Source: Promethearchaeota archaeon
GTDB taxonomy: Archaea; Asgardarchaeota; Lokiarchaeia; Sigyniarchaeales; SOKP01
NCBI GenBank assembly: GCA_016926735.1
Contig: JAFGOA010000071.1
Location: 1-64,000 of the forward strand
Direction of reading: 5' to 3'
Length of the DNA: 64,000 nt
Each line of letters opens with the position of its first letter. Position 1 is the first letter of the stretch. A program made the translations under genes and the position numbers. Positions 39,455-50,809 of this stretch are shown piece by piece. A model generated the notes under the pieces. It did no database searches, was not told the origin of the DNA, and worked only from the letters and a program-made list of their open reading frames with translations.

Positions 39455-40639
39455 CTAAATTGTATGTATTTCAACAATATCCTTATCCTCTAAATCATAA
39501 TCTAATCCAACCTTCTTTCTCTTTTGTCTGGCATTTTTTCTTATAACAACTGCAAAATCAAATAATTCTAAAAAGGTTCTATGAATTTTGTAAGCAACAT
39601 CTCTAATTTTAGCTTCTTTATTCAAGATTAAAGGTTTTTCAGCAACTTTACCAGAATTCATAGTATAAATTCTTATTTTTTCTAAAAGATTTAAAACCAG
39701 TTCTCCAAAATCTGAAGGAAAATTCTTTCTTACAACACTTGAAGCTATTATTTTAAATTTTTTAGAATATTTTTTTTTCAATATTTCGAAATTATCTTCT
39801 GTATGCGGAAGATCTCCTTTTGTACCAATAATTATTGCTTTTCTATATACTATAGAATGATTTAAACAATCTACTATTTGCTCTAAGTTTATTCTACCAT
39901 ATATTTTTACAATGCAATTATGAATACCATTTACTCTAATAATTTGTTTAATTTTATCTGATAATTCCATACTTTCTTTAGATTCTTTTGTTAAAAATAA
40001 GATTTGAATATTATTTGATCCCGTTTTTTCGATATCTATTGAAGGAGGACATTCATTAATTTTAATATCACCATTACTTAATTCATCAAATAATAAATCA
40101 AGTTGTTCATTAATATCCCTCGATAAATCTACGCAAATAGCAATAAGATCACATGAACGAATTTGTGCAATTATCTCTTTTCCATTTCCTACACCTTTAT
40201 ATGCATTCCTCATAATAGAAGGCATGTCAACTATTTGAAATCTAATCTTTTCATAATTTAATATCCCTATTTCTGGTAATGCATTAAAACTACCGATTTT
40301 TGTTTTTGCGGCATTTGTTAAATAATTAAGAAGTGAGGTTTTTCCTACACCAGGAATATGATAATCACTTATTAGAATAATTTGAATACCCTCTTTCTTA
40401 ATTGAAAAAGGACTAACAACTTTACTTATAGATTTTTGTTTTTTTTCCTCTAATTGCCTTTTAAGCTTCGCTAGTTTAGATTTATTCTGAGCAACAATGT
40501 TTTCGGTGGCTTTATGTTTTGGGACAATAGATAGAAATTCTTCGAGTCTTTTTATTTGCTCCTCTATTGTTCCAGCATCTAAATATTTTTGATATGCTGC
40601 TTGAGCTTCAGGTCCTATATTAGAAGACAAAATAATCAC
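39455..40639 (-). CDS. DRG-like GTPase with C-terminal TGS domain, degenerate G motifs
   Basis: This 394-residue protein has a helical start (residues 1-80), a G domain (85-330) and a TGS domain (345-394). The TGS reads VAYKIHRTFLELFDFAVVIR, then GLDYDLEDKDIVEI, much like DRG1/DRG2. The P-loop is HIPGVGKTSLLNYL, where the first glycine of the G-x-x-x-x-G-K-T motif is His; G3 is VDMPSI instead of D-x-P-G; G4 is GTKGDL instead of N-K-x-D. GTP binding may still occur through GVGKTS, but hydrolysis is in doubt. The start is GTG. It is 11 bases downstream of a longin-like gene, so the pair is probably one operon. Confidence 0.82.
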   Translation of the reverse strand: MIILSSNIGPEAQAAYQKYLDAGTIEEQIKRLEEFLSIVPKHKATENIVAQNKSKLAKLKRQLEEKKQKSISKVVSPFSIKKEGIQIILISDYHIPGVGKTSLLNYLTNAAKTKIGSFNALPEIGILNYEKIRFQIVDMPSIMRNAYKGVGNGKEIIAQIRSCDLIAICVDLSRDINEQLDLLFDELSNGDIKINECPPSIDIEKTGSNNIQILFLTKESKESMELSDKIKQIIRVNGIHNCIVKIYGRINLEQIVDCLNHSIVYRKAIIIGTKGDLPHTEDNFEILKKKYSKKFKIIASSVVRKNFPSDFGELVLNLLEKIRIYTMNSGKVAEKPLILNKEAKIRDVAYKIHRTFLELFDFAVVIRKNARQKRKKVGLDYDLEDKDIVEIHTI

Positions 40640-40650
40640 TCTTTAGATCT

Positions 40651-41112
40651 CTAAAAGATTGATCTAAATCGATCCTCTGTTTTAAGTTTTAAATCTCCTA
40701 AAATATTATCAATTCTTTCTATAAATTTTTTTTCAAAAAATTTCTTTTTTTTAGAAAAAATATCATTGATAGAAAACCGATTTAGAAAATGTTTATTAAT
40801 TTCTATTAGATGTTTTTTAACTACGTCTGTATCTGTTTCTTTTTCAATAATTGCATAATATAGTAATGGTTGTTTATTATTATCAGTATTAGCAAGAGGT
40901 AAAGAGACGATTTCAGAATAACATACTAATTTAAATGACGCTAATGAAACAACATTTATATCATCACCAAAAACTTCAGATGTAAAACTTTCTAAAGCAG
41001 AAAGAAATCCAGCTCTTAGATCTGGATCTAATGGATTATCTGAAGCAGAATAATATTGAATTTCAAAAATATTTCTATTTCCAAGGTTAATTCCTATTTC
41101 AAGAACAGCCAT
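40651..41112 (-). CDS. Longin-like protein paired with a DRG-like GTPase
   Basis: This 153-residue protein opens with strands and a helix in longin order: VLEIGINLGNRNIFEIQYYS, a helix LRAGFLSALESFTSEVF, strands INVVSLASFKLVCYSEIVSL and PLLYYAIIEKETDTDVVKKH, and a long closing helix. It ends IDNILG...EDRFRSIF, like the protein at 2436-2888 (IDEILG...EEKFESIF). Longin and roadblock folds act as GTPase partners (SRX, AP complexes, MglB). It is the first gene of a tight pair with the DRG-like GTPase, which supports a direct partnership. The domain assignment is by pattern, not by search. Confidence 0.6.
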   Translation of the reverse strand: MAVLEIGINLGNRNIFEIQYYSASDNPLDPDLRAGFLSALESFTSEVFGDDINVVSLASFKLVCYSEIVSLPLANTDNNKQPLLYYAIIEKETDTDVVKKHLIEINKHFLNRFSINDIFSKKKKFFEKKFIERIDNILGDLKLKTEDRFRSIF

Positions 41113-42089: not shown

Positions 42090-43217
42090 TCAGATTTGTC
42101 TCCGTTTCCATAAAAAGAATATTAAACCAGCAGTAAATCCAATTGCTACTAAAATGCCTAAAAGAACATACCAATTAAATTCTACAAGGCCAATTTCACT
42201 ATTCAATGAATCAAGAGCATTTAAAATTTTTAGAGTTTGATAGGCATTATAGGACGTACTCATAGAAGAATTTTGACTTCCAATCCCAGTAGAAGGATCC
42301 GAAAATCCACCATCAAGTGTGTTTTGGCGATCTAAAATCCAATTAATTGTTGTAAGTCTATCATTATATTCACTTCCAGATACCATTGAGATAATTTTGA
42401 TATTATAATAGGTGCTCCAAATTACTGTTTGAGTTAAAGAAGTATCTGGTTTATACCCACCATTAGAAAGATAAAAACTCTTAGCATATTGAATTATTTT
42501 CTCTTTAGTCGTAGAAGTTAAATTATTAAAACTATCTAAGCTATTAAGAGCAAGAACGGCATAATTTGTTGATGATATTGACGATACTGCAGTAGAATTT
42601 CCTCCAAATCCTCCATCAGTATTATTACAAGTCAATAACCAATTTATATGACTAAGTGCATTGTTCATTTCTTGATTAATTATCTCATAACATTTAATGC
42701 CTAGGAACGTAGATATTACAATCGGATATGAACTTGTATTTGTCATTGAAAACCCACCTGTGATGAGATTTGTCTGGTTAAGATAATTGATAATTTTTCC
42801 ATTTAAACTACTGTTAGAAATGATTATATTATTAATTTGTCCTAAAGTATTGATTGAACTTAATAGATAATATAAATCATATAAATCCATGGCATCATCA
42901 TCAATCTTATAATCTATTATACTTCCAAATAATTCAGATAGTTCTATAGAATCTACATAATAATTAATTTCATTAAAGTCTTTCAATATCTCTAATGCAT
43001 AAAAAGTTGCATCATAGGAGAGAGGACCATCAACTGAATTTGAAAATCCTTCAGAATCTGAGATTCTATTGCTTGAGATAAAATCTATCAAATAATTGCT
43101 CCTTGATTTTGCTAATGATAAAGGGGTAATTATTAAAAATGATAATAATACGAAGCATATTATCAATTTTTTAGTATGTTTCGTTTTCAATCTTGTACAA
43201 CTTAATTTATCTTTCAA
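42090..43217 (-). CDS. Exported, membrane-anchored toroid (prenyltransferase-repeat) protein
   Basis: This 375-residue protein has an N-terminal signal helix (KLIICFVLLSFLIITPLSLA), a domain of alpha-alpha repeats with GGFSMTN, DGGFGGN, NGGYKPD and DGGFSDP, and a C-terminal membrane helix (YVLLGILVAIGFTAGLIFFLWKRRQ). The repeats are of the prenyltransferase/squalene-oxidase type. The catalytic zinc ligands of prenyltransferases (D-x-C-H) are not visible, so it is probably a binding protein exposed outside the membrane. The start is TTG at 43217. It precedes folD by six bases; the functional link is unclear. Confidence 0.75.
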   Translation of the reverse strand: MKDKLSCTRLKTKHTKKLIICFVLLSFLIITPLSLAKSRSNYLIDFISSNRISDSEGFSNSVDGPLSYDATFYALEILKDFNEINYYVDSIELSELFGSIIDYKIDDDAMDLYDLYYLLSSINTLGQINNIIISNSSLNGKIINYLNQTNLITGGFSMTNTSSYPIVISTFLGIKCYEIINQEMNNALSHINWLLTCNNTDGGFGGNSTAVSSISSTNYAVLALNSLDSFNNLTSTTKEKIIQYAKSFYLSNGGYKPDTSLTQTVIWSTYYNIKIISMVSGSEYNDRLTTINWILDRQNTLDGGFSDPSTGIGSQNSSMSTSYNAYQTLKILNALDSLNSEIGLVEFNWYVLLGILVAIGFTAGLIFFLWKRRQI

Positions 43218-43553: not shown

Positions 43554-45092
43554 TTAATAATTACCAAAAATCTGCGAGATATCAGTATGTAGGATTTCTT
43601 TATTTAATTCAAATTGTTCCTTTGTAACAAATAAATTCCTAAATGAGGGCAAACTTCCCAATATTGTCGCACCATTATAGATAGCTAATTGAAGATTATT
43701 GGGTATAAAGAATTTTATTCCACTTTTAGAAGAATCCGTATATTCACTAAAACCTATACTTTTTACTGTTTCTTCTTTTGCTTTTTGAATTTCATTCATC
43801 GGGATTTTTAATGCTTCAGTTTTTAAATTATTACCACAAAAAGGACAAAATACTGATTCTTTATCCTTTATTTCTTTTTTACATTTTGAACAAGTAATAA
43901 TATTACTTATTTTATCTTGTGATATGTCTATTTGAATTGTTGGCATCTCCATATTTGCACCACATTGAGGACAATTTTTAATTCCACCTGATAAGCTGAC
44001 TAATGTACCACATTGTGGACAAGTATCATTTTCTTTTTTATTTCCCTCAATTGGCTTTAATTCTTCAATTTTCTCATTTTTTTTACTGTTCTTCCCTTTA
44101 TTTTTAATAGATATACCATATTGAGGTAATAATATATTTAATTCTGCTCTTAATCTTTCTTCAAAACCACTATGCGAAAGGTTACCTCCAGAAAGTACAA
44201 TGTGAGATAAAAGAACATCCCAATATTCTTGATCAACATTCTGTAGACAGCTAATAACAGCATGTTGAATTCCAGGAGAGTTTGAACCTATCATAGAAGG
44301 AGTAAATAGTACTTCTGTTGAATTATAGAGGATATGATCAGGTATTTGTACTTTAGAACCATCAGGCATATTATATTCGATACTTTCCCCTGTTTTTGCA
44401 GGATTATTTGGATCAATTGTAAAATAACAATTCTTTTCTTTTATTTCTTTTATTATTTCTTCTACAGCAGAAGATGAAATATTTATACCTTCTCTCATTA
44501 ATAGTGTTTTAAGATTATTGCTTACATCCATACCTGCTAAATTTAATCGCTGTACAGCTTGTAAAAGGATTTGCCCGTTAATTATGGGTACAATCCATGT
44601 TAATCCATCACCACTTTCAATAACTAAACCAGTAGTAAGACCTACAGAGAAACATGAAAGAATTGGAGAAGGCACCATTAATAAATTATGAATTTGATGG
44701 GTTTCAAAAAGCACTCTTGCAATAAATTCTTTTATATCTTTTGATTGGAAAGGATCTTCAATATAAATAATTGGATAATCTAAAGGATTTTGAATTCTAA
44801 GTAGAGTATATAAAATATGATTTAAAATTTGATAATAGCTATCCCAATCCACAATTGACCCACGCTGTATTGGATGAGAAATTTTTAGAACACCTCTCAT
44901 TTTCATTGCATCTTGTCCTATATACACATTTCTTGCATCAACATCAACCATTACTGAGTGATATTTTTCAGTTCCAGTTATACAAGGAAAAATGTATCGA
45001 GGATTTACTTCTCCAGCAAATCCCACTTTAACATAAGCAGATCCAATATCAATGATGATTGGAGTCCCTGGTGTTGGTAATGACATTTTCAT
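43554..45092 (-). CDS. Actin-related protein with inserted double zinc ribbon
   Basis: The actin fold is clear: phosphate 1 PIIIDIGSAYVKVGFAGEVN (11-30), PRYIFP, HPIQRGSIVDWD (73-84), phosphate 2 LVIESGDGLTWIVP (156-169), IVLSGGNLSHSGFEERL (298-313) and the last part AIYNGATILGSLPSF...VTKEQFE (470-495). Actin's catalytic Gln137 falls on Ser142 here (MVPSPILS). Between about residues 330 and 460, within subdomain 3, an insert holds two zinc ribbons, CPQCG...CPQCG (358-377) and CSKCK...CPFCG (401-420), flanked by Lys-rich linkers. The length of 512 against actin's 375 is due to this insert. It belongs to the Asgard actin/ARP group. Filament formation and zinc-ribbon function are unknown. Confidence 0.9.
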   Translation of the reverse strand: MKMSLPTPGTPIIIDIGSAYVKVGFAGEVNPRYIFPCITGTEKYHSVMVDVDARNVYIGQDAMKMRGVLKISHPIQRGSIVDWDSYYQILNHILYTLLRIQNPLDYPIIYIEDPFQSKDIKEFIARVLFETHQIHNLLMVPSPILSCFSVGLTTGLVIESGDGLTWIVPIINGQILLQAVQRLNLAGMDVSNNLKTLLMREGINISSSAVEEIIKEIKEKNCYFTIDPNNPAKTGESIEYNMPDGSKVQIPDHILYNSTEVLFTPSMIGSNSPGIQHAVISCLQNVDQEYWDVLLSHIVLSGGNLSHSGFEERLRAELNILLPQYGISIKNKGKNSKKNEKIEELKPIEGNKKENDTCPQCGTLVSLSGGIKNCPQCGANMEMPTIQIDISQDKISNIITCSKCKKEIKDKESVFCPFCGNNLKTEALKIPMNEIQKAKEETVKSIGFSEYTDSSKSGIKFFIPNNLQLAIYNGATILGSLPSFRNLFVTKEQFELNKEILHTDISQIFGNY

Positions 45093-45720: not shown

Positions 45721-46113
45721 TCAATAAAGTTTTTTTAACTTTTGTTCTAATTTTTTTTCAAGAATAAAAACTTCTTCAATCATATTTTTATAGAGAGCTA
45801 ATAGAGATTTTCCCCATTCATTTAATTCTACAGTACCTCCACCCCCAACACCACCTTTGTGTGTAATAACGGGAGATAAACCGGTACGATTTTCAATTCT
45901 TTTTAATATATTCCAAGAATATTTATAAGAATAATTACATTTTTCAGCAGCTTTAGATAAAGATTTGATTTCATCTTTTTCTATTGCTTCTAATAAATTT
46001 GCCCATCCTTTACCCAATATACTAATATCTTCAAACTTTAACCAAAATTTTAAACCAAAATTTATTTTCTTTTTTAGTTCTAATATATTTTGGGGATTAT
46101 TCATGTTAATCAT
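45721..46113 (-). CDS. ModE-type molybdate-responsive regulator
   Basis: The winged helix matches the N-terminal domain of ModE: SILGKGWANLLEAIEKDEIKSLSKAAEKC, the recognition helix SYKYSWNILKRIE and the glycine-rich GGVGGGGTVELNEWGKSLL wing that marks the family. There is no molybdate-binding TOBE domain, so this is the short archaeal type. The best start is ATG at 46113 or 46104; TTG at 46170 would add 19 residues. It may control molybdenum or tungsten uptake or other genes; no molybdate transporter is in the window. It is divergent from the MBL-fold gene. Confidence 0.85.
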   Translation of the reverse strand: MINMNNPQNILELKKKINFGLKFWLKFEDISILGKGWANLLEAIEKDEIKSLSKAAEKCNYSYKYSWNILKRIENRTGLSPVITHKGGVGGGGTVELNEWGKSLLALYKNMIEEVFILEKKLEQKLKKLY

Positions 46114-46362
46114 AAAAACAGATAATTGATATAAATTATTAATTTTACTATAAACATCACTTAAAATCAATGATTTTTAATTAAATTTATCCATATTAAT
46201 TCTAATTTTAATCCATATTATTTAAATTTGTAAATCCATTGAAATGAATTCATTTTTCAAACAATTAGTTCAAATGAAATTTCGAGTAATTTTGTCCTAA
46301 AAAGAAAAGAAAATAAAGAAAAAAATGTTTACAAATATAAAGAATTAAAATAGGTTAGATAA

Positions 46363-47922: not shown

Positions 47923-48055
47923 ATTTTTATCTGATTTTTTTTATTTTTTTTTTATATAAATGTTAGATTTTATATCCTACTTTTTTATATAAATATAGCT
48001 CATTTTGCACGCAAAATTCTTATTGAATTTACAATTAAATTATAAAAAGGTTAAT

Positions 48056-50809
48056 ATGATAAATATGTTTAATATTGAAGATTTTCAAAACTACTCAATA
48101 ATCATCCCAATTATAAAAAAAATTAATAAATATTTAGAAAAAGGAAAACATTCAAATATTTCCCCTCAAATTGAAGAATTAAAAAGGTATTTAGATCATG
48201 ATACTTTAAGCGTACCTATTACATATATATTTAGTGTATTAGCTGAGAATTATCCAGAGTTATTTAATCTTGAGCTTATTGATAAAATTGAACCTTTAGT
48301 CTATTCTGACAATATAAAATTAAAATTAAATTCGATATCAATTTTGGGTTTCTTTATTTTAAATAATCCTGAGCTTATAGATATAAAATATTTCTCTTTA
48401 TTCACTAAATTACTCAATACCGAAAAGAAAGATATAAGAGAGAATTGCTATTATTTTCTACAGAGGATGTTCAATATTGATCAAAGAAAATTATTAAAAT
48501 TTATGGATAATTTACTTGAAGCTTTAGAATTAGAAATATTGGACTCAAAGTTAGAAGATATAATTATTATTCTTAATTTTATTCAGAATTGTGATAATTT
48601 TAATTTCAAACAACTATATACATTAAGAAAATTATCGAAATCAATTATTACAGAGATTTATGACGATTCAGATTCAGATCTTAAATCAATTCTGAATAAT
48701 CTTTTAAAAAATAAATATCAAGAGTTAATAGGAGTAAATTTTGAAGATATCAATAATAATGATCTATTATCATTGATAAACAAAACATTTATCCAATTAA
48801 AATATGAATTTAACAATGATTTGAAGAAAGAAAAACAGATTGAATTCAAAGATTATTTGAAAAAATTTAAAAAAAATGTTCTTAAAGAAAAAGAGATATA
48901 CTTTTATTTTAAAGATCAAGAAAAGCAGAATATTTATCTTTTTGAACTAGAGAAAGAAAAAACAATTGATTTCTTCAATCAAAATTGTAAATTATCATAT
49001 CAAGAGATTATTAATCAATTCCAAAAGGTTTTAGATGATTCAAATCTCCAATTATTTGTAAAAATGCTATTAAAATTAAAGCATATTAGTGGTTTTCTTT
49101 CAGAATTTAATTTCTATCCTTCAAACTATATTATTACTGAATTAACTAATTCTCTAAAAGAAGTTGGATATATTGAATTGGATAATTATAATTATTTACC
49201 AATAGATTTTATTATAGAGAATATTAAGAAAATCTCAAATGAGGCAAACTATAAAATACTTGTTGGAAAAGAAAAAAAAACATTTCATGTACTTTCGAAA
49301 ATTACAGAAAAAATTAGGGAAATAGCAGCTAAAGAAACATGTATTAATTTAAAGACATATCGAGACCAATTTACTGAAAAGTCATTTGTAAAAATTATAA
49401 AATCTCTACCAAAAGATTATTTAACAAGCTATCATAAAGGTTCAAGCTGGCTTACAAATATTGGAAAGTATAAATTTCTTAAAGAGCTAGAAAATTCTAA
49501 GATAATAGGATTTTTCGATATTGAGAAAATAAAAGAAAAGCTAGATATAACTGAAGATTTAATTCGAGAAATTTTTAATAATGAAATAGATATACGTAGT
49601 GGAGTATGGAATAAATCGCAAGATATCTTTTATTATTCAAAATATATAAAACAAAAGGTTGAAGATATAAATCAAATTAAAGATCCTCAAGAAAGAGTAG
49701 ATAGAATAAATAAATTATCAAGAGATCTTAACATAGAAAAGGAAAAAATTATTGGTAAAATTGATGAGAATATAGAATTAATCGGAGAAGAAATAAAGAA
49801 TCAAGATCAAATCCGTATTCCAGAATATATAGAAAAACTAGGTATGGATTATAATGATTTTATGCATTATATTGATAGTTTGGGCTTAAATTATCTAAAA
49901 AGAGCTGATTTTCTCATATTCAATCCTTTAAAAATTGAAAATGCTAAAAAAGAGATAACACAATTAATTAAAAGAGACATTCAAACATTAGATTTTATTT
50001 CTTTGGATAATTACGATATGAATTCTACAATTATAAAAGAAATCTTAAAAGAATTACAGAATATAGAAGAATTTAAAGGAATAGTATACGAAATGGAAAA
50101 TGAAAAAAAGTTCTATACCCAAATAGGATTGAAAAATATGATGCTCTCAAACATATTTCTATTTTCTTTCCACGATTTCTTTTATGGTAAAACATTAGAT
50201 GATAATGAAATATCAATCCTTTTAAACCTTTTTTATGACCTTAATAAACAAGGAAGATTAAAGGGAACATTTAATAAAGCAACATTAACCTTTTCTAGCG
50301 ATGAAATCGTATTTGCAAAAGATTATAACAGTAATTTAGATCAATTCAGATTCATGGTTGATAATTATATTAAAAAGTTTAATTCTGAATTTAAGAAAAT
50401 TAAACCCATTTTAAATAAAGAAACAGCTATAATTCCACAAGAAATAAAATTAATACAGGATGCTATTCTAAGAATAAATGAGAATTATATATTTTGGAAA
50501 AGTAAATTAGATGCATATATAACAAGAGTACATAAAAAATTATTAGAAGATCAGGGTATTTCTTTGAAAAAGTTTAATTCTGTGTCATATACTGGAATGG
50601 ATAAGAAAGATATAAAATCATTTGCAGATGATATTGAAGTTAAAGAATTAATGGATAAATTCAACTATTGGATAAGTCTTTTCAATAAATTAGAATTGAA
50701 ATATCAAAATGTAATATTCTATCAAAAAAGATATTTAAATAATCCAGATGATCAAGAATCTAATCAAAATTTACTAGAATTAAGAAAAGAATTAAATTTA
50801 ACACAGTAG
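48056..50809 (+). CDS. Large helical protein, HEAT-like start and winged-helix-like repeats, unknown
   Basis: This 917-residue soluble protein begins at ATG 48056, after AAAAAGG; a TTG at 48005 is less likely. Residues 1-220 are helical pairs resembling HEAT repeats (ISILGFFILNNPELIDIKYF, then DIRENCYYFLQRMF). From about 300 onward, several stretches look like winged helices or helical hairpins (NSLKEVGYIELDNYNYLP; LSDEI-type LNLFYDLNKQGRLKGTF; TLTFSSDEIVFAKDY). It is very rich in Lys, Glu, Ile and Asn, with no zinc, nucleotide or membrane motif. A scaffold role is the most I can infer. It converges with a small winged-helix gene six bases away. Confidence 0.65.
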   Translation: MINMFNIEDFQNYSIIIPIIKKINKYLEKGKHSNISPQIEELKRYLDHDTLSVPITYIFSVLAENYPELFNLELIDKIEPLVYSDNIKLKLNSISILGFFILNNPELIDIKYFSLFTKLLNTEKKDIRENCYYFLQRMFNIDQRKLLKFMDNLLEALELEILDSKLEDIIIILNFIQNCDNFNFKQLYTLRKLSKSIITEIYDDSDSDLKSILNNLLKNKYQELIGVNFEDINNNDLLSLINKTFIQLKYEFNNDLKKEKQIEFKDYLKKFKKNVLKEKEIYFYFKDQEKQNIYLFELEKEKTIDFFNQNCKLSYQEIINQFQKVLDDSNLQLFVKMLLKLKHISGFLSEFNFYPSNYIITELTNSLKEVGYIELDNYNYLPIDFIIENIKKISNEANYKILVGKEKKTFHVLSKITEKIREIAAKETCINLKTYRDQFTEKSFVKIIKSLPKDYLTSYHKGSSWLTNIGKYKFLKELENSKIIGFFDIEKIKEKLDITEDLIREIFNNEIDIRSGVWNKSQDIFYYSKYIKQKVEDINQIKDPQERVDRINKLSRDLNIEKEKIIGKIDENIELIGEEIKNQDQIRIPEYIEKLGMDYNDFMHYIDSLGLNYLKRADFLIFNPLKIENAKKEITQLIKRDIQTLDFISLDNYDMNSTIIKEILKELQNIEEFKGIVYEMENEKKFYTQIGLKNMMLSNIFLFSFHDFFYGKTLDDNEISILLNLFYDLNKQGRLKGTFNKATLTFSSDEIVFAKDYNSNLDQFRFMVDNYIKKFNSEFKKIKPILNKETAIIPQEIKLIQDAILRINENYIFWKSKLDAYITRVHKKLLEDQGISLKKFNSVSYTGMDKKDIKSFADDIEVKELMDKFNYWISLFNKLELKYQNVIFYQKRYLNNPDDQESNQNLLELRKELNLTQ

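Follow-up and report, generated by a model that had tools for sequence, protein, structure and literature searches.

An actin-related protein of Lokiarchaeia with zinc ribbons inserted in a filament-contact loop

RESULTS

On the minus strand of the window (the whole stretch of 64,000 nucleotides that was analysed) lies a gene for an actin-related protein (ARP) interrupted by zinc ribbons, here called ZnARP, between a ModE-type HTH gene and a gene for a toroid protein (Table 1). The open reading frame starts with ATG and runs uninterrupted for 512 aa. The Pfam Actin model (PF00022) matches residues 10-333 (2.2e-70; 237.8 bits against a cut-off of 27), and phmmer against PDB actins, with HC1 actin 9wc4 as the top match, returned two pieces, query 10-324 corresponding to actin about 8-324 and query 457-502 corresponding to actin about 327-372. 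Alignment with relatives and with one eukaryote-like actin placed an extra stretch of about 130 residues between actin positions ~324 and ~327, with residues 457-505 forming the end of subdomain 3 (SD3) and the return to subdomain 1. Given the two-piece match and this alignment, the ribbons are an insert rather than a C-terminal domain and no actin element is absent, so that ZnARP, as aligned, has a complete actin fold with every element present. An earlier note on this DNA had described an actin core intact at both ends and interrupted in subdomain 3, and the alignment agrees on both counts, placing the insert in loop 321-325. Its description of residues ~330-460 as replaced or enlarged was correct as to enlargement, ~130 aa having been inserted cleanly, but not as to replacement, as no actin part is gone. 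The possibility it had left open, that the ribbons form a separate C-terminal domain, is excluded by the sequence, since actin resumes at residue ~457.

Table 1. Positions in the window of ZnARP, its parts and its neighbouring genes
Feature	Position	Strand	Remark
ZnARP, whole gene (512 aa, insert included)	43554..45092	minus	
ZnARP residues 10-325, first part of the actin fold, covering subdomains 1, 2 and 4 with most of 3	44118..45065	minus	
Insert, residues ~326-456 (linker, two zinc ribbons, linker), in actin loop 321-325	43725..44117	minus	
Ribbon 1, C358xxC-12-CxxC377	43962..44021	minus	four Cys invariant across four families
Ribbon 2, C401xxC-11-CxxC419	43836..43892	minus	absent from family f4
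ZnARP actin fold, last part (residues 457-505)	43578..43724	minus	phmmer against PDB actins and alignment
Toroid protein, downstream neighbour of ZnARP	42090..43217	minus	start codon uncertain
ModE-type HTH protein, upstream neighbour of ZnARP	45721..46170	minus	

The AlphaFold models of ZnARP were of low confidence, with a mean pLDDT of 46 from a 17-sequence alignment and of 52 after the eukaryote-like actin was added. A Foldseek search with the second of these low-confidence models retrieved actins first (E 1.7e-17, ~515 columns across the insert), at a TM of ~0.45 and an rmsd of ~13 A, which lends weak support. Scanning viral contigs for actins to deepen the alignment gained one sequence, and the search for a phage relative found none.

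The cysteine pairs of the insert lie at 358/361, 374/377, 401/404 and 416/419, exactly where the earlier note had seen two CxxC...CxxC ribbons (358-420), and zinc-ribbon and DZR Pfam models match residues 351-382 and 399-423 at about 1e-5, slightly under their curated cut-offs. None of the eight cysteines varies in A1 (17 ZnARP sequences), and the four of ribbon 1 are invariant in 23 diverse ZnARPs. Two ribbons are present in 54 of 58 distinct ZnARPs and one in the other 4, with family f4 retaining ribbon 1 and lacking ribbon 2. Judged on these sequences, the paired-CxxC architecture is far above chance. A full-length second copy of the insert was sought elsewhere in the genome and not found. 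In a Nei-Gojobori comparison of seven ZnARP pairs, in which the regions are small and the values noisy, omega was 0.17-0.43 for the ribbons versus 0.06-0.17 for the N-terminal part of the core, pointing to ribbon and linker codons that evolve more quickly than the core, yet under constraint. The invariance of the ribbon 1 cysteines and their location in a contact loop would also suit a zinc or redox switch gating ZnARP polymerisation or Lokiactin binding. Against such a switch, to which we give a slim chance, knuckles of the CPxCG type usually hold zinc in a structural role, and no redox gene is conserved near ZnARP.

In a search of 228 Asgard genomes, where a ZnARP-class match was defined by E below 1e-80 (open frames of 490-566 aa, except that of G128, cut short at 333 aa), ZnARP was found in 69 of the 79 genomes of the host's Lokiarchaeial order, in four families (f1 58/65, f2 1/1, f3 6/8, f4 4/5). 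There were no matches among the 149 Asgard genomes outside that order, whose best actins reach 40-42% identity, match to residue ~330 only and have frames of 384-413 aa; in this search for the insert among Asgard actins, which the earlier note had proposed, ZnARP-class matches occur in this order only. All named relatives are Candidatus Lokiarchaeota/Lokiarchaeia MAGs. The maximum-likelihood tree joins the insert-bearing actins in one clade (100/100) with a single change, the insert columns having been removed by the 30% fill filter only, a treatment that could favour the clade; it fixes no sister group and flags long branches. On this tree, the insert arose once. The host genome encodes four actins, namely Lokiactin (443 bits), ARP-B (278 bits), ZnARP and a divergent fourth, and ZnARP forms a separate clade (100/100) rather than grouping with the Lokiactins, of which the genome has its own. 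ARP-B (L002, G000:C125:8999-10081) is a second ARP found throughout the order, and another Lokiarchaeial family has a divergent 575-aa actin-like protein with a C-terminal extension of ~200 aa (L154:445-2169). The possibility of a gene fusion, an assembly artefact or a decaying gene, of which the first two had been raised by the earlier note, is ruled out by omega well below 1 and by an architecture shared, across independent assemblies, by 69 genomes from four families; nothing was found in its favour, and we give it practically no credence.

Within the nucleotide site, D11, K18, E214 and G302 are invariant in all 58 distinct ZnARPs, and the D154 position is mostly Glu. The position of catalytic Q137, which in the window protein is Ser142, as had been noted, is never Gln (S/T/A in 58/58); that of H161 is Trp in 43/58 and His in 2/58, and that of H73 is Arg in 58/58. 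In actin, the attacking water is held in place by Q137 and H161, and the ATPase activation that comes with the filament is driven by Q137. We infer that ZnARP binds ATP, hydrolyses little if any of it and remains in the ATP state. Human Arp8, with similar residue losses, shows stable ATP binding and only low basal ATPase (PMC3510490).

One longitudinal contact in F-actin joins the SD3 loop 321-324/325 of a subunit to the SD4 loop P243-D244-G245 of its neighbour (PMC7247010), and by alignment the ZnARP insert falls within that SD3 loop. At the pointed-face positions compared (D-loop, 61-65, 199-206, 241-247), the identity of ZnARP to Lokiactins was 0.54 in f1, 0.45 in f3 and 0.57 in f4, versus 0.28 at the barbed face in all three families and 0.35-0.42 at other positions. 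Circular shifts of the position masks reached this face difference in 0.5% of cases in f1, 0.3% in f4 and 4-7% in f3. Among Lokiactins themselves both faces are equally conserved, and ARP-B shows the opposite trend relative to Lokiactins (pointed 0.36, barbed 0.46), which is not significant. Because the contact position sets, taken from general F-actin contact knowledge, were finalised after single positions had been viewed, the comparison is suggestive, not conclusive, of a pointed face that is Lokiactin-like and a barbed face that has been rewritten. P243-D244-G245 is present in 58/58 ZnARPs, and K39/Y40/M44 are nearly invariant; at the barbed face, 169 and 287-290 are replaced, in part consistently across the family (Y289 48/58, W290 51/58), and part of the barbed cleft is conserved (I345, L346, L349, F352). 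The conserved D-loop, PDG loop and cleft residues, together with linkers of about 30 residues on either side of the ribbons, could fit a minority subunit that copolymerises in Lokiactin filaments, its flexible ribbons decorating the side and recruiting partners. We regard such copolymerisation as rather unlikely, considering the replacements at 169 and 287-290 and the break that the insert makes in the 322-325 contact. The loss of Q137/H161, the contact-loop insert and the rewritten barbed face give good support to the view of the earlier note that this true member of the actin family has become a regulator or scaffold.

Among 36 related loci, the ModE-type HTH gene lies upstream of ZnARP in 27 and the 375-aa toroid gene downstream in 29; a divergent MBL-fold gene is also found upstream, and the toroid gene is followed by folD, a short protein and a TGS GTPase. 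Read by eye, the toroid protein begins with a signal/hydrophobic segment, continues as an alpha/alpha toroid and ends in a C-terminal membrane helix with a short basic tail; it is apparently exported and membrane-anchored. The best solved relatives of its profile are Rab geranylgeranyltransferase (RabGGTase) beta subunits (1.2e-21); a conserved D-x-C zinc motif is not apparent in it, and the protein is therefore probably not a prenyltransferase-type enzyme of the RabGGTase kind. In the 83 genomes of the class, 67 have both ZnARP and toroid, 2 have ZnARP alone, 2 toroid alone and 12 neither. Wherever both are on one contig (65/65 genomes, four families), the toroid gene follows ZnARP on the same strand, at a distance of 83-697 bases with one exception of 2238, and the short gaps would be compatible with cotranscription. 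The Fisher p of 8e-11 for co-occurrence is overstated and adjacency is the sounder evidence, because the joint absence in G096, whose contig stops 7.7 kb beyond the flanking gene, while the pair lies ~11 kb away in G098, is probably an assembly gap. ZnARP occurs without the toroid gene in G155 and G157, where an MFS-like transporter takes its place; the toroid partner is therefore dispensable.

Two further genes of the window were observed. The short protein at 40651-41112 (minus), of no known family, is conserved beside the TGS-domain GTPase (39455-40639), and its pattern recalls a longin/roadblock-like fold as a candidate. At 48005-50809 (plus), a mostly helical-looking 934-aa protein without a convincing Pfam match is conserved (about 40% identity) at the same locus in other Lokiarchaeia.

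The neighbourhood bears on another explanation, in which a monomeric ZnARP serves as scaffold subunit in a large complex, as nuclear Arps do in chromatin remodellers, with its ribbons on DNA, RNA or chromatin proteins and with no role in Lokiactin filaments. Zinc ribbons are common nucleic-acid binders, and linker 1 of the window ZnARP holds 9 K/R in 30 aa. Arp8 likewise lacks Q137/H161, carries H73->R and has insertions in actin-contact loops (PMC3510490). However, the Lys-richness of the linkers that the earlier note had remarked on applies to the window protein and is not a conserved trait (1 K/R in ~40 aa in L046), no DNA-processing gene other than the ModE-like HTH gene is conserved beside ZnARP, and the Lokiactin-like pointed face is hard to account for without actin binding; overall, we consider such a scaffold unlikely, though by no means negligible. 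Nucleic-acid binding through the Lys-rich linkers was likewise considered and downgraded, and the hint of nucleic-acid binding in the earlier note was not borne out, given the variable linker charge and a membrane protein as the most constant neighbour.

A homologue from Candidatus Lokiarchaeum ossiferum, UYP44711.1, has been published in an actin tree and in an RT-qPCR panel, in a text silent on zinc, and Lokiactin was severalfold higher in the RT-qPCR of the four actin homologues of this organism (PMC9834061). The forward primer for UYP44711.1 matches the ZnARP gene of L037 (nt 374 versus 361, 4 mismatches, LPDIAQ / PPDIAQ). As a search of the 83 class genomes did not find the Lokiactin primer of L. 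ossiferum, the assignment rests on this single primer match, by which UYP44711.1 is probably a ZnARP orthologue transcribed in culture below Lokiactin. The statement of the earlier note that it knew of no described actin with such an insert agrees with the literature consulted, in which none was found, the likely orthologue having been published without mention of zinc.

DISCUSSION

Asgard archaea are the source to which the eukaryotic actin skeleton is traced. Zinc ribbons placed within the polymer-contact loop of an ARP are, as far as the literature consulted shows, a new architecture. In ZnARP an F-actin contact is clearly broken by the protein's own design and a zinc module has been recruited, so that the role of ZnARP, be it cap, anchor or scaffold, can be put directly to the test with Lokiactin in vitro.

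From the established sequence features we infer the ATP state, the Lokiactin binding, the capping and the partner. Our preferred reading, held tentatively and with somewhat less than even confidence, is that ZnARP is locked in the ATP state and docks on the Lokiactin barbed end, its ribbons blocking growth or recruiting partners. ZnARP would bind ATP and remain in the ATP state, and would attach by its conserved D-loop and SD4 PDG loop to the barbed end that a Lokiactin filament or monomer exposes. The barbed side of ZnARP itself, with the ribbons on flexible linkers, would refuse further actin, leaving the filament capped or anchored. The ribbons might then recruit a protein partner, possibly the membrane toroid neighbour or a complex around it, perhaps near the membrane. 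Capping by ARPs has a precedent in Arp4/Arp8, which cap the actin barbed end (PMC6167448). A point against capping is that long flexible linkers could move the ribbons off the interface and permit copolymerisation. The fuller version, a barbed-end cap or anchor tied to the prenyltransferase-toroid membrane protein, with ARP-B specialised otherwise, is unlikely in our estimation.

If this fuller version is true, lokiarchaeal ARPs would have acquired a division of labour of their own, and a cap or anchor would represent ARP end-control and membrane-tethering independent of eukaryotic Arp2/3 and dynactin. ZnARP would show that archaeal actin paralogues turned into filament regulators before, or in parallel with, eukaryotes.

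Among known systems, the Pfam double zinc ribbon (PF12773) and Zn_ribbon_3 (PF13248) resemble the insert in their paired CxxC-11/12-CxxC knuckles, whereas the ZnARP ribbons sit within an actin fold and score just below the cut-offs. The nuclear Arp4/Arp8 of INO80 (PMC3510490, PMC6167448) are, like ZnARP, ARPs of actin fold in which loops that contact actin carry insertions. On the outer barbed end of its SD3, Arp8 carries a small insertion V; it also has the changes Q137->E, H161->S and H73->R and, unlike ZnARP, large inserts in the D-loop and hydrophobic plug (PMC3510490); the parts of the Arp4/Arp8 reports used here describe no zinc ribbons, another difference from ZnARP (PMC3510490, PMC6167448). 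Lokiactin (PMC9834061) shares with ZnARP the actin fold, D11/K18/E214/G302, the D-loop and the SD4 PDG contact loop, whereas ZnARP, at ~35-40% identity, departs from it in the changed Q137/H161/H73, the apparently rewritten barbed face and the ~130-aa insert.
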